In this document: positions 1,736 to 16,073 of the stretch, piece by piece
How positions within the stretch are numbered: position 1 is the first letter of the stretch
How the letters are laid out: every line of letters begins with the position of its first letter
Assembly (NCBI GenBank): GCA_019136325.1
Contig: JAGVUJ010000190.1
Location: 1-16,073 of the forward strand
DNA from: Deltaproteobacteria bacterium
GTDB taxonomy: Bacteria > Desulfobacterota > Syntrophia > Syntrophales > Smithellaceae
Direction: 5' to 3'
DNA: 16,073 nucleotides
Position numbers and translations under genes: made by a program
Notes under the pieces: generated by a model
Seen by the model: only the letters and a program-made list of their open reading frames with translations
The model's database searches: none
What the model was told of the DNA's origin: nothing

Positions 1736-3697
1736 GTGAAGCTCTTAGAGAAGATCACTGTCGAAGGAATGGAGCTCAAGAACCGGATGGCGTTTCCACC
1801 CATTACGACGGCATTCGGTGCTGTGGACGGGTGCTTCACGGACATCGAGACCGCCTATATGATCGAACGGGCCCGCGGCGGAGCGGCCCTTGTTTTCACG
1901 GACGGCGTGGCTGTTGACAGGAATCACCAGCTCAGCGTCGGAACAAATCTACCTTATTTCGACAACGACAGGCAAATCTCAAGTTATGCAAGATATACCG
2001 ATGCCCTGCGCAACGAAGGGGTGAAAACCTGTATCCAACTCTATCATGCGGGGCGCCAAACCACTCTTGCCAAGCGTGGCGGCAAGGAGCCTATCGCGCC
2101 CTCGGCTGTGTCCACAAAGATGCTGGGGCTCATACCCTTTCCTGACGCCGTGGCGATGACGAAGGCGGATATCGAGTGCACCATACGGTCCTTTGTGCTG
2201 GCCGCGAGCCGCGCCAAAACCGCGGGATTCGACGCGGTCGACATCGACGGCGGAGCCGGTTATCTGATTCAGCAGTTCATGTCTCCGTACACCAATAAAA
2301 GATGCGACGAGTGGGGCGGAACTTTTGATAAGAGGATGAGATTTGCCCTTGAGATTGTGTCCAGGGTGAGGGAAGTTGTCGGAAGAAGTTATCCCATGGT
2401 TTTCGACCTACCCATGGATGAATATGTCCCCGGAGGCATTACTCCGGACGATGGGGTACAGATAGCCCTGGCGTTGGAAGAGGCCGGTGTCAACGCCTTC
2501 AGGGTACATGGCGTTGTGCTCGAGACCTATAACCGCATGTTTCCGACCATGGCTGCCCCAAGAGGCGTCAATGCTCCGCTGGGAGCCATGCTCAAGAACC
2601 GGCTCAGGGCGAAAGTCATGCTGGGCCAGAGGATAAATGAACCATTGCTTGCAGAAAAATTGCTGCAGGACGGCGTGTGCGACATTATCCTCCTGGGCAG
2701 AGCCATGCTTGCAGATCCGGATTTTCCGGTCAAGGTGAAGACTGGCAGGACACGGGAAATTAGAAAGTGTCTTGCCTGCAACACCTGCGTAGACCAACTG
2801 GGGTTCAACAAGCCGATCCGGTGTGCGGTGAACGCCCGCTTGGGGTTCGAACGTGAATACCGGATCAAAAAGACCGGAACGTCTAAAACCATCCTGGTTG
2901 CCGGCGGAGGGCCTGCGGGGATGGAGGCGGCGAGAGTCTTTGCCATGACCGGACACCAGGTAGTGCTTTGCGAAAAAAAAGATGCGCTCGGCGGTCAACT
3001 CCTTCAAGCCTTGGTTCCGCCGCACAAAGAAGAGCTTTCCAATCTGGTGGAGTATCTAGCCGGACAGATGGAAATACTTGGCGTGGATGTCCGGTTGAAA
3101 ACAACGCTCGACAAAGAACTCGTCCGGCAGATGAAACCTGATGCCGTGATTATCACCACAGGAGCCGTGCCGGTGCTGCCGCCTATTCCCGGATCTGACG
3201 GTGAACAGGTTTTCCTAGCCAAAGATGTTATCGTGAAAAACGACGACATCCAAAAGAAAAAGGTTCTCATCGTGGGCGGCGGATCTGTCGGCGCGGAGAC
3301 GGCGGAGCTTCTCTGGAGTCGGGGAAACAAAGTCACGGTTCTGGAAATGCTCGATACGATTGCCGCGGACATGGGCCTTTTTATATCGCTCGATTTCCTG
3401 GAGCGCATGCAAAACACGGACATCATGTTTATTACTGGGGCGCGAGTGAAGGAGATTCTGGGAAATGGTGCGGTTTACGAGGACTCAGCAGGATCTGAAC
3501 ACTTCGTGGAATCTGATTTAGTGGTCCTTGCCGTGGGGTATGCGGCGGATCAGACCTTGGCCCGGGAACTTGAGGATATGGATATTCCCATCGTCATTGC
3601 GGGCGATGCCGTGCGCGCAAGAAATATCATGAGTGCAGTGCACGAAGGATTCCACACGGCGCGCATTCTGAATGAAAATCTGGAAGGAGGAGGATGA
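1736..3697 (+). CDS. Old Yellow Enzyme-type NAD(P)H:flavin oxidoreductase, 2,4-dienoyl-CoA reductase (FadH)-like
   Basis: 653 aa, close to the length of FadH-type enzymes. The order is an FMN TIM barrel (about 1-335), a [4Fe-4S] motif CLACNTC (C345, C348, C351) plus C363, an FAD-binding Rossmann fold (VAGGGPAGMEAARVF, about 387) and an NAD(P) fold (VLIVGGGSVGAETAELL), ending in a VIAGDAV flavin motif. The family reduces alpha,beta-unsaturated carbonyl or enoyl-CoA substrates with NAD(P)H. The barrel has IDGGAGYLI where many Old Yellow Enzymes have a His-x-x-His pair. Tyr176 is kept, as in FadH, but no obvious equivalent of the FadH catalytic His is visible. The GTG start is chosen because MKLLEKITVEGMELKNR matches the family's usual N-terminus and GGGGAGAGG lies about 9 bp upstream. 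The family is sure; dienoyl-CoA, enoate, aryl-CoA or other substrates are all possible. Confidence 0.92.
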   Translation: MKLLEKITVEGMELKNRMAFPPITTAFGAVDGCFTDIETAYMIERARGGAALVFTDGVAVDRNHQLSVGTNLPYFDNDRQISSYARYTDALRNEGVKTCIQLYHAGRQTTLAKRGGKEPIAPSAVSTKMLGLIPFPDAVAMTKADIECTIRSFVLAASRAKTAGFDAVDIDGGAGYLIQQFMSPYTNKRCDEWGGTFDKRMRFALEIVSRVREVVGRSYPMVFDLPMDEYVPGGITPDDGVQIALALEEAGVNAFRVHGVVLETYNRMFPTMAAPRGVNAPLGAMLKNRLRAKVMLGQRINEPLLAEKLLQDGVCDIILLGRAMLADPDFPVKVKTGRTREIRKCLACNTCVDQLGFNKPIRCAVNARLGFEREYRIKKTGTSKTILVAGGGPAGMEAARVFAMTGHQVVLCEKKDALGGQLLQALVPPHKEELSNLVEYLAGQMEILGVDVRLKTTLDKELVRQMKPDAVIITTGAVPVLPPIPGSDGEQVFLAKDVIVKNDDIQKKKVLIVGGGSVGAETAELLWSRGNKVTVLEMLDTIAADMGLFISLDFLERMQNTDIMFITGARVKEILGNGAVYEDSAGSEHFVESDLVVLAVGYAADQTLARELEDMDIPIVIAGDAVRARNIMSAVHEGFHTARILNENLEGGG

Positions 3698-3701
3698 AGC
3701 A

Positions 3702-4049
3702 ATGACATCCGCCAAGCTTGTGGAGGCCATTGTCATGGAAAATTCCACCTGCGGCATGCAGATGGATGCATTCCGGAGGAACCCATCCGACCCTGTCCGG
3801 GTGGCTATCGATCTTGCCGAACAGGTGTTCAGGCTGCCGAAACGGCTCCGGAGTTTTCCGGAGTTGGAAAAAGAACTGGAAGGGCTGTTCATAAAGCAAA
3901 TCAGACCCGGTTCCATCCCGGCTATGACGATCCGCATGGCCAAGGGCCTGTCAGACTCCGCGGGGCCTAAAGAGGGCTTGACCAAAGCGCTCATTAAAAG
4001 CGCGTGTTTATCGATGGGATTAAGAATCCCGGGGGAGCGGGAAGCATAG
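3702..4049 (+). CDS. Small protein of unknown function, likely coupled to the upstream reductase
   Basis: 115 aa, soluble, no signal peptide or membrane segment. I do not recognise it. ATG 3702 is chosen because a strong Shine-Dalgarno run (GGAAGGAGGAGG, 3682-3693) sits 8 bp upstream; an in-frame ATG at 3672 lies inside the previous gene and has no such site. The start is 4 bp after the reductase stop, so translation is probably coupled. The sequence is rich in Met, Leu, Lys and Arg, with an acidic/amphipathic middle (FPELEKELEGLF) and three Cys residues (STCGM near the N-terminus, SACLS near the C-terminus, not in a metal-binding spacing). It may be an accessory or assembly factor of the flavoenzyme, but that rests on position only. 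Confidence 0.7.
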   Translation: MTSAKLVEAIVMENSTCGMQMDAFRRNPSDPVRVAIDLAEQVFRLPKRLRSFPELEKELEGLFIKQIRPGSIPAMTIRMAKGLSDSAGPKEGLTKALIKSACLSMGLRIPGEREA

Positions 4050-5243: not shown

Positions 5244-5903
5244 ATGAGAATGTGGAAAAAGCTTCTGCTGGGTATCGGAATCCTGATTGTTGTGCTGCTG
5301 GTTTTATTATTCATTAATATTCTTCAGAACGGCACGGGCGGATGGGATGGCCGGTCCATCGAAAAGATTCTGGGGGTTCCGCCTCAGCAGGCTACCGTGG
5401 CTGATATTGAAAAACTCTCGAAGTCTGACGTCATGCAGCTTTTCTTAGCGGCTTCTCCGCCCGAGTTCTCCAGCGTCAAGGGCGAATACAAAGCCAAAAT
5501 CCTTCAGGTTGGCATCATGGGGCCGATCGCTCCGTTATATACAAAATATCTTCTCGGCCCCGGTGACTGGAAGGCCAAGGCCTTCTATCCCTTTCAAAAA
5601 GATGCCGGCTGGGGATACAATCTGTGGGAGATCAGGGAGAACGGACAGCCGAAGATTATTCGCACCGTAAAAATGAGAACATTCATCGGAAAATCCCGGA
5701 TTGACGGCAGGGACTCCTTCCAACTCGACTACAGCCCTTTCAACGGCGGTATTGATTATCACATGAAAGATGAAGTCCGGCGGATAAACGACCGGCTTTA
5801 TATCTGCATGGGAATGGTCATCCCTGTGGGGCATCGGTTTAACCCCAATGCCTTCGTTTTATATGATCCGACGCCGTGGATCGGACCGGATAAGGCACAA
5901 TAG
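5244..5903 (+). CDS. Membrane-anchored protein of unknown function
   Basis: 219 aa. A positively charged start (MRMWKK) is followed by one strong hydrophobic helix (about residues 7-28, LLLGIGILIVVLLVLLFINI) with no clear cleavage or lipobox site, so it is probably an N-terminal anchor with the rest outside the cytoplasm. The remainder is beta-rich and aromatic, with GDWKAKAFYPF, a GWGYNLW segment and a YICMGMVIP strand. This could be a small lipocalin-like or beta-barrel fold, possibly distantly like DUF4334-type proteins, but I cannot assign a family. ATG 5244 has a good ribosome binding site (AAGGGAG). It lies between two SDR genes on the same strand, which hints at a role with a hydrophobic substrate or product. 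Confidence 0.75.
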   Translation: MRMWKKLLLGIGILIVVLLVLLFINILQNGTGGWDGRSIEKILGVPPQQATVADIEKLSKSDVMQLFLAASPPEFSSVKGEYKAKILQVGIMGPIAPLYTKYLLGPGDWKAKAFYPFQKDAGWGYNLWEIRENGQPKIIRTVKMRTFIGKSRIDGRDSFQLDYSPFNGGIDYHMKDEVRRINDRLYICMGMVIPVGHRFNPNAFVLYDPTPWIGPDKAQ

Positions 5904-8325: not shown

Positions 8326-10209
8326 CTAGTGATGGCCGTGCTTTGCCTTGGACTTCATCTCTTTATATTCTGCGCGCAGGGTAATATGATCCATCTCTTC
8401 CATGTCCTCCGCTCTCTTGACCCAGTCTTCAAATTGAATATCGACACCGAAGATGCCGATCATTTCGTCCTGCTCGTTAACAAGAGGGGCGGAAACCGTA
8501 AAACATAATACTCCCGTCATTTTGGAAATGAAGAAATCGGATACGAAAACCTTGCCGGTGCGCAGGGGATTGATGAACCATTGCCTGTCGGACTGATCGG
8601 TGCCCACACCGTAGTTTTCATATTTGGCCCGATCATCGATATTGGTGATGTTTTTTGTGGTTTTACGTCCGTTCATGTCCACAATATAAGCGAACTGAAC
8701 GGAAGGATGTTCATCCACAAAACCCTGCATGATAGTTTCCTGTTTTTCCGTATCCATTGTCTTCATCAGGGGGTGTTCGATAATCTGATTGACCGCGGCA
8801 ACGGCGGCTTTTTCGGCAATGTATTTGATCTTTTCCAGTTCGGACATGAAGTGTTCAGGCAGATACAGACGGACTTTCTTTTCCATTTCTTCGGGAGAAA
8901 TGGAGGTGATGCGGCCGGCTTCGTATTGTTCCATAACCCACTTGTGAATTTTGGAAATTCCCGGGTGTCTTTTGTCCACCACTTTGTTGCCTTCCAGATC
9001 AAAACGCTGATTGATCCAGAAAGCGATGCCGGCATTGCCGGACTTGTCCGTGATGGTCGTGGTGATCGGTCGTTTTAAAATTTTCCTGGTATCAAAGATA
9101 TTGTAAATTTCCTCGCATTTAATCAGGCCGTCGGCATGCACACCGGCGCTGGTGACGTTGAAACCCGAACCGACAAACGGATAATTATGCGGTATTTTTA
9201 CGCCGATTTCCTTCTCAAAATATTCGGCGATATCGGTGATGACGGTGGTGTCGATGCCGTTTCTTCCCCGCAGGGCTATGTATTCGATGATCAGGCCTTC
9301 AATGGGTGGATTGCCGGTGCGCTCGCCCATGCCCAGAAGCGTGGAATTGGCGGCGCTGCAGCCATAGAGCCAGGCGGTCGTTGCGTTGATCATGGCTTTA
9401 TGAAAATCGTTGTGCCCGTGCCATTCCAGCAGATGTCCGGGAACTCCGGCATCGTGGATAAAAGCATAAATAAGTTTATCAACGCTGCGGGGCAGCGCAG
9501 CGCCGGGGTAGGTGATGCCGTAGCCCATCGTGTCGCAAAGTCTGATTTTAATGTCAATGCCGCTTTCATCCCGGAGTTTCATCAATTCCTGGGCAAAGGG
9601 AATGCAGAATCCGTGAATATCGGCGCGGGTCACATCCTCAAAATGGCAGCGGGGGATGATCCCCAGATCAAGAATGGATTTGACGATGCCGAGATAACCG
9701 TCCATGGCCTGGCTTCGTTTTTTATTCAGTTTGAGAAAAATATGATAATCGGAAACGGACGTGAGAATGCCGGTTTCCTTCAAACCAAACTGTTTGACCA
9801 GGGGGACATCTTCTTTCGCCGCTCTGATCCAGCTTGTGATTTCCGGATAGGGCAATCCCAACTCCAGGCATTTTAATACGGCGTCCTTGTCTTTTTTGCT
9901 GTAGAGAAAAAATTCCGACTGACGGATTACTCCGTTGGGACCGCCCAGTTTGCTGAGCAATGCAAATATGGCGACGATCTGTTCCGCTGTGTAGGGAGGA
10001 CGGGACTGCTGGCCGTCACGAAAGGTCGTGTCCGTGATAAAAATTTCTTTGGCCGGTCTCATGGGGACGGTTTTGTGATCGAAAACAATCTTGCTGACTT
10101 CCGAGTATGGGAAAATGTCTTTATAGAGATTAGGTTCTTCCAGTTCTTTTAATTTGAATTTCTTTAATTTACTGGTCACCGGTTTTTTTTCTTGCTTTGT
10201 TTTAACCAT
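8326..10209 (-). CDS. Re-type citrate synthase homologue with C-terminal Cache/PDC-like sensor domain
   Basis: 627 aa from ATG 10209. The N-terminal part is an HMGL-like acyltransferase barrel: ITDTTFRDGQQ (residues 58-68) and the metal-binding HGHND (264-268), followed by LGMGERTGNPPIEGL. The segments EPNLYKDIFPY, LGGPNGVIRQSEFFLY and LTSVSDYHIFLKL resemble the Re-citrate synthases described in Clostridium kluyveri and Syntrophus aciditrophicus rather than LeuA. These condense oxaloacetate and acetyl-CoA to citrate for glutamate synthesis in anaerobes. From about residue 490 to 596 there is an added domain (FAYIVDMNGR, YGVGTDQSDRQWF, FISKMTGVLCFTVSAPLV, IGIFGVDIQF) typical of ligand-binding Cache/PDC sensors, then a charged tail ending HGHH. 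There is no membrane segment, so this sensor is cytoplasmic. It lies 19 bp after aspS. A TTG start at 10236 is possible but less likely. 2-Isopropylmalate or homocitrate synthase is the alternative. Confidence 0.85.
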   Translation of the reverse strand: MVKTKQEKKPVTSKLKKFKLKELEEPNLYKDIFPYSEVSKIVFDHKTVPMRPAKEIFITDTTFRDGQQSRPPYTAEQIVAIFALLSKLGGPNGVIRQSEFFLYSKKDKDAVLKCLELGLPYPEITSWIRAAKEDVPLVKQFGLKETGILTSVSDYHIFLKLNKKRSQAMDGYLGIVKSILDLGIIPRCHFEDVTRADIHGFCIPFAQELMKLRDESGIDIKIRLCDTMGYGITYPGAALPRSVDKLIYAFIHDAGVPGHLLEWHGHNDFHKAMINATTAWLYGCSAANSTLLGMGERTGNPPIEGLIIEYIALRGRNGIDTTVITDIAEYFEKEIGVKIPHNYPFVGSGFNVTSAGVHADGLIKCEEIYNIFDTRKILKRPITTTITDKSGNAGIAFWINQRFDLEGNKVVDKRHPGISKIHKWVMEQYEAGRITSISPEEMEKKVRLYLPEHFMSELEKIKYIAEKAAVAAVNQIIEHPLMKTMDTEKQETIMQGFVDEHPSVQFAYIVDMNGRKTTKNITNIDDRAKYENYGVGTDQSDRQWFINPLRTGKVFVSDFFISKMTGVLCFTVSAPLVNEQDEMIGIFGVDIQFEDWVKRAEDMEEMDHITLRAEYKEMKSKAKHGHH

Positions 10210-10215
10210 GTTGTT

Positions 10216-10219
10216 CTCC
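10216..10219 (-). promoter_or_regulatory. Ribosome binding site deciding the citrate synthase start
   Basis: On the - strand GGAG (10219 to 10216) is followed by AACAAC and then ATG at 10209, a normal 6-base spacing. The upstream in-frame starts (TTG at 10236, which would overlap aspS, and ATG at 10221) have no comparable site. Confidence 0.65.
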
Positions 10220-10228
10220 ATCCGAAAA

Positions 10229-12010
10229 TTAAACAATTTTTAACGACAACTCCATTAACTGCTCGATGCCGACTCTGGAAGGAGCGTCGGTCATGAGACA
10301 GGCCGCTTTCTGCGTTTTCGGGAAAGCGATGACATCCCGGATCGACTCGGCTTTGGTCATGATCATGGTCAGCCGGTCCAGTCCGAAAGCCAGGCCTCCG
10401 TGAGGCGGAGCGCCATACTCGAGAGCGTCCAGGAGGAATCCGAATTTCAGCCTCGCCTCCTCATCGGTCAATTTCAGCGCACTGAAGACCTGAGCCTGCA
10501 CATCCTTATGGTGAATACGAATACTGCCGCCGCCGATTTCCGAACCGTTCAGTACAAGGTCGTAGGCTCTGGCGCGGACTTTTCCCGGATCGGTTGTTAA
10601 AAAGGGCAGGTCTTCCAGAAAAGGCGATGTAAACGGGTGATGTGTGGAAACAAAGCGTTTCTCCGATTCCGAGTATTCCATCAGCGGAAACTCCGTAATC
10701 CAGGTAAACGCCAGCGCATCCGGATCAATGAGATTCAGTTTTTTCCCGAGATGAAGGCGTAAGTTGCCGAGAGAATCGGAGACAACTTTCGGCGTGTCCG
10801 CCACAAAGAAAATAATATCTCCTTCTTTCGCGTTCATCGCTTTGGCGATGCCGTCAACTTCCTCGGGTTTGAGGAATTTAAAAATAGGCGATGTCCAGTC
10901 GGCTGCGTTGACTTTGGCCCAGGCCAGTCCCTTGGCGCCGTAAATGGCGACGACATCTTTCAAACCGTCCAGGTCTTTGCGGGAGAGTGCGGAGGCCTGT
11001 TCGGCTTTAATCGCTTTGATGACGCCTCCGGAAGCTGCCACTTCTGAGAAAAGTTTGAATCCTGAATCTTTGGCGATGGCTGTCAGATCCACAATTTCCA
11101 TGCCGAAACGCACGTCGGGATTATCCTTGCCGTAGCGGCTGATCGCTTCGGCATAAGTCAGCCGGGGCAGGGGAAGGGTCAGCTCTTTATTCAGGCAGGC
11201 CTTGAAGATGGATTTCATCAGGCCTTCCATCATCGCCATGATGTCTTCTTCGGTGATGAAAGACATTTCCACATCAATCTGTGTGAATTCCGGCTGACGG
11301 TCGGCGCGCAAGTCTTCATCGCGGAAACATTTGACTATTTGGTAATAACGGTCGAAGCCGGAAACCATCAGCAGTTGTTTGAATATCTGAGGCGATTGCG
11401 GCAGCGCGTAAAACATTCCTTTGTAAATTCGGCTGGGAACAAGGTAGTCCCGCGCACCTTCCGGTGTGCTCTTGCCCAGGAAGGGTGTTTCCACTTCGAT
11501 AAAACCGTTGTCTTCGAAATACCGGCGGGTTGCCCCGGCCAGTCGGCTTCGTAAGAAAAGATTCTTCTGAATCGCGGGACGTCGCAAATCCAGATAACGG
11601 TATTTTAAGCGGATATTTTCCGAAATGTCATCATCGTCAAAAGAGAAGGGCGGTGTCTTGGATTCATTCATGATTTCCAGAACGGAGACAATGACTTCTA
11701 TCTGACCGGTTTTCAGCGCCGGATTCTCCATCCCTTCGGGGCGTTTTCTGACCTTGCCTTTAACAGCCAGGACATATTCGTTGCGGATTTTATGCGCTTC
11801 ACTGTGCACGCTTTCTCCGGCGTCGGGATTAAAAACGACCTGGACCATTCCCTCCCGGTCACGAAGATCCACGAAAATCACGCCACCGTGATCACGACGG
11901 CGATGAGCCCAGCCCATTAATACAACGTCCTGTCCGTCAACGGATGCATCAAGGCTTCCGCAATAATGAGTTCTTTTATCTTTTGTTAGGAATTCAGCCA
12001 AAATTTTCAT
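10229..12010 (-). CDS. aspS: Aspartyl-tRNA synthetase, bacterial type, probably non-discriminating
   Basis: 593 aa, the usual length for bacterial AspRS. An OB-fold anticodon domain (about 15-120) is followed by the class II core, with [16 protein letters not shown] (motif 2) and [13 protein letters not shown] (motif 3), and a GAD insertion including [12 protein letters not shown]. The enzyme charges tRNA-Asp with aspartate. In the anticodon domain the motif RRRDHGG has His41 where discriminating E. coli AspRS has Leu30, and Gly93 (RPEGM) aligns where E. coli has Lys81. Both match His31/Gly82 of the Pseudomonas aeruginosa enzyme, which also charges tRNA-Asn. It overlaps hisS by 4 bp (ATGA) with AAGGAG just ahead of its ATG, so the two are translationally coupled. 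Confidence 0.97.
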
Positions 12011-13281
12011 TTCTCCTTAATAATTTTAATAACAGATTCCATCAATCCGTCTAAAGGGATGTTCTGCTGTTCTTTGTTTCTCATGTTTCTCATGATGACC
12101 TGTTTTTCTTCCATCTCTTTATCGCCAAGGATCAGGGCGAAAGAACTGTTCAACTTATCGGCTTTCTTGAGCTGGGATTTCAGGCTTTTGCCTGAATAAT
12201 CCGTTTCGGCGGAGAGTCCGGCGGTTCGGATTCTGTTCGTGAGTTCGAAAGCGATTTTCTGGGCCTGTGTCCCCAGGGCGGCGATGAAGAGATCGGTTTT
12301 AAATGCGTCCTGAGCATGGTCCGGCAGACAAGAGATCAGACGTTCCAAACCGACGCCAAATCCGATTCCGGCGACTTCCGGTCCTCCCAGAGAACTGACC
12401 AGGCCGTTATATCTGCCGCCGCCGGCAATGGCGTTCTGCGCGCCCAGGGCGTTTGTTTTGACTTCAAATGCTGTTTTCGTGTAGTAATCCAACCCGCGAA
12501 CCATTCGGGGATTGATGGCAAAGGCTATACGGATATCGTTAAGAAAAGACTGCACCTGTGCAAAATGGCTTTCGCAGTCAGCGCATAAGAAATCAAGTAT
12601 GCTTGGCGCTTTGGCTATGGTGGATGCACAGGTTTCCACTTTGCAGTCGAAAACACGCAGAGGATTGGCATGGATGCGTCTTTGACAATCGGGACAGAGA
12701 TTTTTTTCGCTGTCTTTTAAAAAGTCGACAACGGCTTTGGAAAATACCGGACGGCAGGCTTTGCAGCCCAGAGAATTAATTTCCAATTGCAGATCCTGCA
12801 AACCGGCGCCGGATAGAAAATGCATCAGCATGAAAATGACTTCGGCATCCGATTGCGGTGTGTCATCGCCGAAAACTTCGACATCGATCTGATTAAACTG
12901 GCGGAACCGCCCCTTCTGCGGCCGTTCCCTGCGGAACATCGGACCCATGGTAAAAAGTTTGGAGATCGGTTCGCTGGCGAACATATTGTGCTCAATGTAG
13001 GCGCGGATGACCGAAGCGGTGGCTTCCGGACGCAGGGTGATGAGTTCGTTGTCCCGATCGGGAAATGTGTACATTTCTTTTTCGACGATGTCGGTTGTTT
13101 CTCCGATACTTCTTTGAAATAGAAGAGTTTTTTCGATGATGGGGACGCGTATTTCCCTGAAACCGAAAGAATCAAAAATGGTTCGGGCCAGGGATTCGAT
13201 TCTGCAGAAAGCAAGCGCATCTTCCGGCAGGATATCTTTGAAACCTCGAATAGCTGTAATTTTTTCCATAGAGATAACCAT
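12007..13281 (-). CDS. hisS: Histidyl-tRNA synthetase
   Basis: 424 aa, normal length. It charges tRNA-His with histidine. Class II motifs are clear: [19 protein letters not shown] (motif 2), the histidine-specific [13 protein letters not shown], and [11 protein letters not shown] (motif 3). An insertion with CPDC and Cys-rich surroundings lies in the middle, and the C-terminal anticodon-binding domain ends the protein. Two starts are possible, ATG 13281 and ATG 13269 ([15 protein letters not shown], closer to the family's usual beginning); neither has a strong ribosome binding site. It follows the response-regulator terminator and begins a likely hisS-aspS-citrate synthase operon. Confidence 0.97.
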
Positions 13282-13438: not shown

Positions 13439-15196
13439 TTAACTGAGCGTGAAATTTCTCTCGCGGAATAACCTCAGGCAGGCGTCCACGACAGCCGCGT
13501 CATAAAGAGTATTTTTGTTTTTGATAATTTCATCGAGTGCAAAATCAATTCCCAGGGTGGGCCGGTAAGGACGATGGGAAGAAATGGCCTCAACGACGTC
13601 GGCTACCGCCAGAATTCTTGACTCCAGAAGAATATCCCTCCCTTGCAGCTTTTGCGGGTAGCCTGAACCGTTCATCCGTTCATGATGCTGTAAAATGGCA
13701 ATGGCGACCGGCCAGGGGAATTCGATATCCTTAAGGATGTTGTATCCGGACTGAGAATGGGTCTTAATCAGCTCGAATTCGAGATTGGTCAGTCTGGTGG
13801 GCTTGCTGAGAATTTCCGACGGGATGGATAATTTCCCGATATCGTGAATGATCGCGGCTGTTTCGATAAATTCTTTTGTATCGTTGTTCAGTCCCATTTC
13901 TTCGGCAATCGCCCGGGCCAGCATGGACACCCTTCTTTGATGGCCTGTCGTGTAGGGATCTCGCGTCTCGACCATGGTTGCGATAGCGCTCACCGTCGCA
14001 TCCAGCGTTTTCTTTATTTTAAGAAAACTCTGGGAGCGTTCCTCTTCCAGTTGTTTGCTTTCCGTGATATCTTTCAAAAAATTCAGGGTGGCGTTTTTTT
14101 TCTCCCATTCGACAAGAGAGGTATTCAGCTCCATCCATTTTTCCGTTTTGTCCCGGCAAACGATTCGGAAAGAATAAACGGAAGGCACTGTTTCTCCATT
14201 CAACCTCTTTAAATGATAATTGCGGACCATGGCGGCATCATCGGGGTGGATAAGACTGATGAAATCCATCATATTCAACTCTGCCAGAGAGTATCCCGTG
14301 TTCGTTGAAGTGGCGCTGTTGGCGAAAACAATTTTCATGTCCTGCGTGATGAGAATGGCTTCTCTGGCGTTTTCCACGACGATGCGATAACGCTCCTCGC
14401 TGGCCCGAAGGTTTTTTTCCGCCTGTTTACGGGAGGTGATGTCGTTGTAAAGAGCTTGAAATTGCATTTGACCATTCCAAAGAACCTGTTTGCGGAACAC
14501 TTCCAGATGGCGAATGGTGCCGTCCTTGCGGATAATGCTGACTTCATAATGCGGCGGAACGTATTCGCCGCGTTTTCTCATTTCAATTCTTTTTTCATAT
14601 TCGAGAAAGGTCTCCGGCGTGTATCTCTGCATATGAGAGATGGATTTCAACTCATTAATGCTTTCGTAACCGAACATGTTTAAAATTTCCCGGTTGGCGT
14701 ACAGTAACTCGCCGTCGGACGTGACGATGCGCACGCCCAGCGGAGATTCATCGAGCGAATTGCGGAAATTTTCTTCGCTTCTTTTGAGCATTTCCTCCGT
14801 ATTTTTTTTATCCCGTCTGATTTTCGCTTCGCTGATTTCACGCTGCACCGCGACCGGAAGCTTGGTGAGCTTGTCTTTCATCAGATAATCGTGAGCCCCT
14901 GCCTTCATGGCCTCGACAGCCGTTTCCTCGCCGATGGCGCCGGAAACAATAATAAAGGGGATATTGGGATTGATTTCCTGCGCCAGTTTCAGGGCCGCCG
15001 GAGCGCTGAAATTGGGCATTTTGTAATCACAGAGAATGACATCCCATTGTTTTTTCCCCAGGGCTTTTTTCATCTCCGAATGAGTGTCCACACGTTCCCA
15101 TTCCGGATCGAAACCGCTATTGCGTAATTTACGTATGATCAGACTGCAGTCATCCTCCGAATCATCAACGACAAGAACGCGAAGAATATCAGCCAT
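13439..15196 (-). CDS. Response regulator: REC-PAS-PAS-HD-GYP (putative cyclic-di-GMP phosphodiesterase)
   Basis: 585 aa. The N-terminal receiver (about 5-125) has the acidic pair D11/D12, phospho-acceptor D57 (LCDYKMP) and the conserved Lys in YLMKDKL. Two PAS domains follow (about 140-260 and 265-385), each ending in a PAC-type NDITSRKQAE or KDITESKQLE segment. The C-terminal HD-GYP domain (about 400-570) keeps GHQRR (H419), HDIGK (H451, D452), and HHERMNGSGYP (H504 to P514), so it should be catalytically competent. HD-GYP domains hydrolyse c-di-GMP. ATG 15196 has AAGGAG upstream. The gene lies 95 bp after a histidine kinase on the same strand, its probable partner, and ends at an intrinsic terminator. 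Confidence 0.93.
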   Translation of the reverse strand: MADILRVLVVDDSEDDCSLIIRKLRNSGFDPEWERVDTHSEMKKALGKKQWDVILCDYKMPNFSAPAALKLAQEINPNIPFIIVSGAIGEETAVEAMKAGAHDYLMKDKLTKLPVAVQREISEAKIRRDKKNTEEMLKRSEENFRNSLDESPLGVRIVTSDGELLYANREILNMFGYESINELKSISHMQRYTPETFLEYEKRIEMRKRGEYVPPHYEVSIIRKDGTIRHLEVFRKQVLWNGQMQFQALYNDITSRKQAEKNLRASEERYRIVVENAREAILITQDMKIVFANSATSTNTGYSLAELNMMDFISLIHPDDAAMVRNYHLKRLNGETVPSVYSFRIVCRDKTEKWMELNTSLVEWEKKNATLNFLKDITESKQLEEERSQSFLKIKKTLDATVSAIATMVETRDPYTTGHQRRVSMLARAIAEEMGLNNDTKEFIETAAIIHDIGKLSIPSEILSKPTRLTNLEFELIKTHSQSGYNILKDIEFPWPVAIAILQHHERMNGSGYPQKLQGRDILLESRILAVADVVEAISSHRPYRPTLGIDFALDEIIKNKNTLYDAAVVDACLRLFRERNFTLS

Positions 15197-15291: not shown

Positions 15292-16073
15292 TCATTGCAG
15301 CGTAAAATAAAAAGTCGCTCCCTTATCCTGCGCGCCTTCGGCCCATACAATTCCGCCGTGACGGCTGATAATCCGCCTGATGGTGGCCAGGCCGATTCCC
15401 GTGCCGGGGAATTCATCGATGTTGTGCAATCGCTGAAACGGAGCAAATAACTTATCCACATAGTCCATGTCAAAACCGGCGCCGTTGTCCCGGACGAAAT
15501 ATGCTTTTTTCCCGCCTTTATTTGTCACACCGAATTCTATTTCAGCATCCGTCTTCTTGCCCGTAAATTTCCAGGCGTTGCCCAGGAGATTTTCAAGTAC
15601 AATTTTTATTAATCTCGAATCGGCGTAATCGATGAGGGAATCCGCGATGGTCACATTGACGAAACGATCGGGATGAGCTTTGCGCAGTTCATCAACGACT
15701 GTCAACGCAATATTGGAAAGGTTGATATCGGCTTTGTCAATTTCCGTCCGCGTTATTCTGGAGAGTTTCAGCATGTCGTCGATCAGCTCACTCATGATTT
15801 CGGTCGCTCTCCTGATTCGGCTGATATAATCTTTGGCCTGATTATCCAGCTTATCGCTGTAGTCCTCAACCAGCGCAACGCTGAATCCCTCGATTGTTCT
15901 TAGCGGCGCCCGGAGATCGTGAGACACCGAATAGGAAAAGGCTTCCAGCTCTCTGGTACGCTCCTGAACCTTTTCTTCCAGGGATTCGTTCAGTCTGAGA
16001 ATTTCCTGCTCGGCTTTTTTGCGTTCACTGATATCCACGCCAATGCCCAGAAGATAATTCTGGCCCGAGACGG
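15292..16073 (-). CDS. PAS-containing sensor histidine kinase (5' partial)
   Basis: The frame is open to the window edge, so the N-terminus is missing; 259 residues are visible. The first residues (SGQNYLLGIGVDISERKKAEQE) are the end of a PAS/PAC domain; the GTG at 16038 is internal, not the start. A short coiled coil leads to a HisKA dimerisation domain with the phospho-acceptor His in SVSHDLRAPLR (codon 15919-15921). The HATPase_c domain has ENLLGNAWKF (N box), RDNGAGFDMDYVDKLFAPF (G1) and GTGIGLATIRRII (G2). No membrane segment is visible in this part. It is probably the kinase for the HD-GYP regulator downstream. Confidence 0.95.
   Translation of the reverse strand, partial: VSGQNYLLGIGVDISERKKAEQEILRLNESLEEKVQERTRELEAFSYSVSHDLRAPLRTIEGFSVALVEDYSDKLDNQAKDYISRIRRATEIMSELIDDMLKLSRITRTEIDKADINLSNIALTVVDELRKAHPDRFVNVTIADSLIDYADSRLIKIVLENLLGNAWKFTGKKTDAEIEFGVTNKGGKKAYFVRDNGAGFDMDYVDKLFAPFQRLHNIDEFPGTGIGLATIRRIISRHGGIVWAEGAQDKGATFYFTLQ

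Follow-up and report, generated by a model that had tools for sequence, protein, structure and literature searches.

Can a sensor domain known mainly from the outside of the cell serve as the regulatory part of a soluble metabolic enzyme? This question is raised by one gene in the 16,073 nucleotides of a Smithellaceae contig (phylum Desulfobacterota; this whole stretch of DNA is hereafter the window), in which a Re-citrate-synthase-like acyltransferase is followed by a C-terminal PDC/Cache domain (Table 1). According to a passage of PMC4822843, Cache domains are the chief extracellular sensors in prokaryotes and usually located between membrane helices; it describes them as principally extracellular except for two small families (i.e. 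Diacid_rec and YkuI_C), and states that they had until then been identified exclusively together with output signalling domains. Among the open-licence papers listed by our term-based searches, none describes a Cache, PDC or PAS domain paired with a Re-citrate, citrate or isopropylmalate synthase. Both domains on these proteins are already known to databases. The fusion appears to follow the plan of the regulated acyltransferases, with a domain of a new kind at the C-terminus, the regulation itself being putative.

Architecture and genomic setting of the fusion gene

The product of the fusion gene matches PF00682 above the Pfam cut-off, and the residues of the HMGL R-D and HxH motifs (i.e. R64, D65, H264 and H266) are unchanged in 58 sequences. 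Its C-terminal part matches PF22673 with 44.1 bits against a cut-off of 27; matches to PF22673 are present in 58 of 58 family members at E 0.001. The accessory region behind the barrel matches HCS_D2 in 12 of the 58. The C-terminus is a genuine single PDC/Cache domain, and the PF22673 match agrees with the sequence-only reading, which had placed a domain of this type near residues 490–596. That reading also held that the domain lies in the cytoplasm and has no membrane segment, and that its design differs from the LeuA regulatory domain. Both statements stand: a simple membrane-segment scan of the window protein (P0001) found no such segment, and neither a LeuA dimerisation domain nor a RAM domain gave a Pfam match up to E 1. 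The classical Cache arrangement between two membrane helices is accordingly absent, and the Pfam matches show the PDC domain joined to an HMGL acyltransferase instead of a signalling output domain.

Table 1. Features of the fusion gene and its upstream neighbours in the window (nucleotide positions; residues are those of the fusion protein).
Feature	Position	Strand	Residues, motifs and evidence
Fusion gene, Re-citrate-synthase-like enzyme with C-terminal PDC/Cache domain	8326..10209	-	627 aa; open frame and Pfam
HMGL/DRE-TIM barrel	9223..10041	-	Residues 57–329; motifs DTTFRDGQQ, HGHND, GERTGNPP
Post-barrel accessory region	8845..9222	-	Residues 330–455; unfused relatives stop near here; end of 6ktq match
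PDC/Cache domain	8410..8817	-	Residues 465–600; Pfam match 497–595 (8425–8721)
R542-Q-W544-F545 pocket motif	8575..8586	-	Alignment to PctA R126-W128-Y129; also to the position changed by mutation in KinD entry 4jgq
F560-I-S562 pocket positions	8524..8532	-	Conservation among fused forms
D590 pocket position	8440..8442	-	Aligned with PctA D173
aspS (aspartyl-tRNA synthetase)	10229..12010	-	Pfam tRNA-synt_2 and GAD; directly upstream of the fusion gene
hisS (histidyl-tRNA synthetase)	12007..13281	-	Pfam; 4-bp overlap with aspS

Structure prediction and a structural search, which had been proposed as a check, give the C-terminus a fold like that of KinD, WalK and Tlp3, with CitA also among the best fold matches. 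The domain model, a monomer without ligand, consists of a long N-terminal helix (residues 33–53 of the model) followed by the strands of a PAS-like sheet. For the catalytic part, the nearest solved fold is 6ktq, the catalytic part of the homocitrate synthase of Sulfolobus acidocaldarius, and this match stops at residue 453, immediately ahead of the PDC domain.

The fusion gene lies 19 bp behind aspS on the same strand, in the order hisS–aspS–fusion gene (8326–13281). Among the 68 loci with at least 2.2 kb of upstream sequence, aspS is present in 34, and in 29 it is adjacent, on the same strand and within 400 bp; hisS is present in 27 of the best 80 loci, each time together with aspS. The eight loci with identities of at least 69% (L001–L006, L036 and L055) all contain aspS, with gaps of 1.4 kb in L004 and 0.8 kb in L005. 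This shared neighbourhood suggests co-transcription, and the fusion gene and aspS probably form one operon, a link that may be passive. Judged from their record titles, the loci that carry aspS are on the deltaproteobacterial side. Elsewhere in the window, Pfam assigns a response regulator receiver, PAS stretches and an HD_5 domain to 13439–15196, next to which an open reading frame at 15292–16038 looks histidine-kinase-like by eye; two further frames (5244–5903, 219 aa; 3672–4049, 125 aa) have no Pfam match up to E 1.

Identity of the catalytic part

The barrel had been read as having Re-citrate-synthase-like signatures. The fusion protein has matches to the isopropylmalate, homocitrate and citramalate synthase models of NCBIfam, all far below their cut-offs (124.7 against 517 and 123.3 against 462.9). 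A barrel tree was built from 110 relatives and, as outgroup, nine further HMGL proteins of four genomes. It places the relatives on a branch of their own with a support of 83, for which the long outgroup branches call for caution. The nine outgroup proteins include four isopropylmalate and three citramalate synthases above their NCBIfam cut-offs, one homocitrate-like protein below its cut-off (L089) and one protein without a match. The tree thus separates the barrel from isopropylmalate and citramalate synthases; for homocitrate synthases, the comparison is limited to the below-cut-off row L089.

We then compared the distribution of the family with that of the ordinary citrate synthase (Citrate_synt, PF00285). 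Among 198 Desulfobacterota genomes, a fusion-family protein is present in 99 and PF00285 in 100: 16 genomes have both, 83 the family only, 84 PF00285 only and 15 neither (Fisher p 2e-23, in a test that ignores kinship). If the 11 Desulfobacterota genomes with only a partial or weak PF00285 match are counted as lacking it, these four classes become 14, 85, 75 and 24 (p 6e-19), a recount made for Desulfobacterota only. Among 198 Spirochaetota genomes, the corresponding numbers are 14, 19, 132 and 33 (Fisher p 4e-5, the test again ignoring kinship). Both types of citrate synthase therefore coexist in 16 of the 99 Desulfobacterota and 14 of the 33 Spirochaetota genomes that bear the family; in the latter phylum, PF00285 accompanies a fused copy in 3 of 13 genomes and unfused copies alone in 11 of 19 (p 0.075), which makes a link between the PDC domain and a missing Si-citrate synthase tentative at most. 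In brief, the gene tends to replace the ordinary citrate synthase in two phyla.

The neighbours of two unfused relatives were also inspected. One (L135) adjoins a malate/lactate dehydrogenase and a fumarase; the other (L136) adjoins a PF00180 dehydrogenase that scores highest on isocitrate dehydrogenase models, at 475.6 bits and so below the cut-off of 510, and reaches 227.6 against 353.2 on the isopropylmalate dehydrogenase model. Database names among the homologues listed are mostly isopropylmalate, homocitrate or citramalate synthase, and five automatic names are citrate (Re)-synthase. Several proteins (P0010, P0019, P0031 and others) are named histone-lysine N-methyltransferase in public records, a name to which the Pfam scan gives no support.

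Because the barrel stands apart from isopropylmalate and citramalate synthases and the gene is distributed inversely to citrate synthase, a Re-citrate synthase is the best reading of the enzyme; we strongly infer this identity, with the stereochemistry as a putative part of it. PMC12016533 takes Syntrophus aciditrophicus and Clostridium kluyveri to have known Re-citrate synthases, which group apart from a Thermoanaerobacter, Clostridioides and heliobacterial set. For Thermodesulfatator indicus, a passage of PMC12743299 describes a homologue of Re-citrate synthase together with labelling results that indicate an oxidative route to 2-oxoglutarate. In our data, a Thermodesulfatator sp. genome (L020) carries the fused form. 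By the present evidence, the Syntrophus aciditrophicus and Clostridium kluyveri proteins are probably the same kind of enzyme, and Syntrophus belongs to the same order as the nearest relatives of the window (Smithella). The Syntrophus enzyme is reportedly a homotetramer with subunits of ~73 kDa, as Kim et al. are said to have found in 2013, a subunit size that fits the fused form; the Clostridium kluyveri enzyme was reportedly the subject of work by Li et al. in 2007. To our knowledge, a C-terminal domain has been described on neither of the two.

Distribution, pocket residues and origin of the PDC domain

All of the best 120 homologues listed carry both domains in databases. A contig search of the best 80 loci yielded 76 full-length fused genes, the other four being cut or broken; the titles of their records name Deltaproteobacteria/Thermodesulfobacteriota, Nitrospirae, Spirochaetes, Omnitrophota, Elusimicrobia, Lentisphaerae, Armatimonadetes, Fibrobacteres, Termititenax and others. 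The architecture is thus common to related syntrophs, as had been supposed, and fused copies extend across many phyla. This recurrence rules out a local oddity or an annotation artefact. A giant fusion of 1474 aa at G840 was not reproduced, the frame there having 536 aa. In one of the loci closest to the window (L006, from a metagenome assembly), the gene is split into two frames of 95 and 511 residues, and it was excluded from the counts.

Genome samples of six phyla, each called after the record through which it was reached, were searched with the fused query at E 1e-50, which favours fused copies, and a copy was called fused if its match ended at residue 590 or beyond and unfused if it ended at residues 410–470. 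Together they gave 154 fused copies, 47 unfused copies and four of neither class, where the fused count takes in three C-terminal pieces from Desulfobacterota and three split genes from Nitrospirota. Fused copies predominate in Desulfobacterota (matches in 99 of 198 genomes; 96 fused, two unfused, one of neither class) and Nitrospirota (31 of 118 genomes; 29 fused, none unfused, two of neither class). Spirochaetota have matches in 33 of 198 genomes, with 35 copies (13 fused, 21 unfused, one of neither class), and two of these genomes (G211 and G247) hold a fused and an unfused copy each. The phylum of the Lentisphaerae record (14 of 194 genomes) has three fused and 11 unfused copies, Omnitrophota (5 of 117) three and two, and the phylum of the Armatimonadetes record (21 of 121) 10 and 11. 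In uncut unfused copies, the last matched residue of the window protein is at ~444–465. The 47 unfused copies in the six samples indicate that the PDC domain is not needed for catalysis.

For trees and conservation counts, seven of the 211 matching loci were dropped as cut or broken (L006, L060, L078, L080, L148, L160 and L220), and further rows were removed by identity before the tree, the conservation count and the domain tree. Among the resulting 106 non-redundant fused forms, W544, S562 and D590 are invariant (106/106), F545 is present in 105 and T571 in 104; position 560 is Y in 88 and F in 15 (Y or F in 103), the window having F. R542 is kept in 93 of the 106. The 13 forms in which it is replaced by H, K, S, C or T are all derived from Spirochaetota, Lentisphaerae or Armatimonadetes, and the ligand may differ in these loci. 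Replacements by H, K or T were noted in L149, L069, L077, L146, L147, L193, L194, L071, L076 and L219. Taken as a whole, the PDC domain varies more than the barrel does (1.85 versus 1.00 bits of mean entropy); dN is lower in the PDC domain than in the catalytic part in five of six close pairs, which share members and have synonymous sites near saturation.

A passage of PMC10104139 gives the motif residues of PctA and their roles (i.e. Y121, R126, W128, Y129, Y144 and D173), and a passage of PMC8694187 states that KinD binds small carboxylates. The domain profile aligns the pocket residues of the fusion with PctA R126, W128, Y129, Y144 and D173, and also with Tlp3 and KinD. The equivalent of Y121 is not kept (T537 in the window, variable among the 106 fused forms), and the equivalent of D146 is S, as in KinD. 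Part of the dCache_1AA motif is therefore retained, namely R, W, F (for Y129), F or, in most relatives, Y (for Y144), and D. Membership of the dCache_1AA class of amino-acid sensors was ruled out by the missing Y121, the change of D146 to S, a dCache_1 profile score below the cut-off and the single module. Judged from the alignment, the pocket signature is a mixture of KinD (R, S and T) and of amino-acid sensors (W and D), and it fits a small carboxylate or an amino acid as putative ligand.

The domain also has relatives outside the enzyme family. PF22673 matches occur in 26 of 39 Desulfobacterota genomes, with the fusion enzyme accounting for 18 of the 30 matches fetched. Among these 30 fetched loci, the best non-enzyme relative is a domain at the C-terminus of a chemoreceptor-like protein in G019; this domain scores 114 bits and shares 34% identity with the window domain over 140 residues. 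A search with this domain returned 110 proteins, 109 of which list the chemotaxis signalling domain PF00015 and all of which list PF02743 or PF22673; in 109 of the 110, at most 40 residues separate the PDC domain from the C-terminus, and 91 have no membrane segment in a simple scan. The five pocket positions read R, W, Y, S and D in all 110, where some sharing is expected in a set selected by similarity. These proteins (P0122–P0231, together with L261:1486-3108) are mostly soluble chemoreceptors with a C-terminal domain of the Cache clan and a fixed R-x-W-[FY] / Y-x-S / D pattern. Among the open-licence papers listed by a search, we found no report of ligands for these soluble chemoreceptor PDC domains. 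Of eight further PDC domains of the same phylum, whose limits were set by hand, seven have W, six the equivalent of D590 and one that of S562 (five have D there). W544 and D590 may thus partly reflect the fold. From these alignments, S562, and R542 together with S562, are the features that set the fusion and chemoreceptor group apart from other PDC domains.

In a domain tree of 136 columns, the 48 enzyme domains taken as representatives fall into one starred group beside the chemoreceptor PDC domains, with a stray row on a very long branch (L253_ext) inside the fused-domain group and with chemoreceptor rows that are not one clade. The barrel tree mixes fused with unfused forms and requires at least six changes between them (five on a thinner tree); the data do not reject one clade that unites the fused barrels (p-AU 0.278). 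Several independent fusions are not favoured given the one starred domain group, the stray row notwithstanding, and this p-AU value. Since the free barrel trees need six or five changes between fused and unfused forms, losses or transfers after the fusion are likely. The simplest history suggested by the trees would be one capture of a cytoplasmic chemoreceptor-type domain, followed by losses or transfers.

Proposed regulation and comparison with known systems

We consider it probable that the PDC/Cache domain is an allosteric module on a Re-citrate synthase, which would read a cytoplasmic metabolite, as yet a putative ligand, and tune citrate and glutamate synthesis. Its ligand class, its allosteric coupling and its feedback direction are the parts that we infer. 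In this scheme, (i) the catalytic part would form citrate from acetyl-CoA and oxaloacetate; (ii) the PDC/Cache domain would be a cytoplasmic ligand-binding module at the C-terminus; (iii) R542, W544, S562 and D590 would hold a small carboxylate that bears a 2-oxo or an alpha-amino group, with glutamate, 2-oxoglutarate, aspartate, oxaloacetate and pyruvate as candidates; and (iv) binding would alter how the PDC domain packs on the catalytic part or on a partner subunit, and thereby the rate. The C-terminal RAM domain of homocitrate synthase and the LeuA domain of isopropylmalate synthase serve feedback control, and the PDC domain would take their place after the catalytic part. This position, together with the alignment of the pocket with binders of small carboxylates, suggests that a metabolite near the citrate–glutamate branch may bind the PDC domain and change the rate.

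Alternatively, the PDC domain could be a structural or oligomerisation module that joins or spaces subunits and has no regulatory ligand, its conserved residues keeping the fold. A passage of PMC8694187 notes that Cache and PAS domains also act in dimerisation, the existence of unfused enzymes indicates that the domain could be dispensable, and other PDC domains, too, often have W and D at these positions (7/8 and 6/8). However, three invariant residues align with ligand contacts of PctA and with KinD, and the sensor-type chemoreceptor relatives share the five pocket letters throughout (110/110), so that we regard a purely structural role as rather unlikely.

The two remaining alternatives keep a sensory domain and change either the enzyme or the recipient of the signal. 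If the catalytic part were another acyltransferase, making homocitrate or a new product under the control of the PDC domain, most of the database names among the homologues listed would be in its favour, as would the sole homocitrate-like row of the tree being below its cut-off; this is very unlikely in view of the wide shortfall on the NCBIfam cut-offs, the inverse distribution to PF00285 in two phyla, the TCA-type genes beside unfused copies and the five automatic names. That the domain instead signals to another protein (i.e. a partner or the chemotaxis system) and not to the attached active site would accord with its nearest relatives found, which are chemoreceptor domains with a signalling output. 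It is nevertheless joined covalently to a single family of enzymes in many phyla, at the position that feedback domains hold in relatives, and the fusion enzyme is the only PF22673 match (E 0.001) in eight of the nine genomes of other, diverse phyla reached via their loci, which makes such a reporting role most improbable.

Returning to the allosteric module on a Re-citrate synthase, a wider and tentative proposal, which we hold to be possible though somewhat doubtful, is that a single sensor capture gave rise to a widespread ligand-gated citrate synthase that responds to the same metabolite as the soluble chemoreceptors, such that one kind of pocket would govern taxis as well as the flow of carbon towards glutamate. 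What the data bring forward is a cytoplasmic Cache family on an apparent enzyme of primary metabolism in many bacterial phyla, and with it a directly testable candidate for what controls glutamate synthesis at its first step in syntrophs and sulfate reducers, among others. They also point to a group of cytoplasmic C-terminal PDC domains in soluble chemoreceptors, and the soluble enzyme would offer a convenient system for learning the ligands of PDC pockets. If the allosteric reading is true, a Cache domain would be used as the allosteric domain of an enzyme of central metabolism, and an intracellular metabolite could turn citrate production up or down.

Among known systems, the homocitrate synthase of Sulfolobus acidocaldarius (RAM), which has the same catalytic fold (6ktq), and the LeuA enzymes share the plan of a catalytic barrel followed by a C-terminal domain; the fusion enzyme differs from both in that this domain has the PDC/Cache fold. 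The KinD sensor (4jgo; 4jgp with pyruvate) and the amino-acid sensors PctA and Tlp3 are among the best profile and fold matches: R542 aligns with the KinD arginine changed in 4jgq, S562 and T565 are the same as in KinD, and D590 is shared with PctA and Tlp3. These three are extracytoplasmic parts of membrane receptors and contain two PDC modules, in contrast to the one cytoplasmic module on the enzyme. YkuI of Bacillus subtilis combines an EAL domain with a cytoplasmic Cache domain (YkuI_C) of a different Pfam family, which sits on a c-di-GMP signalling domain, whereas the PDC domain of the fusion sits on an enzyme of central metabolism. The mostly soluble chemoreceptors, the nearest domain relatives found, have the same pocket letters and a C-terminal PDC domain, and differ from the fusion enzyme in their output, a chemotaxis signalling domain.
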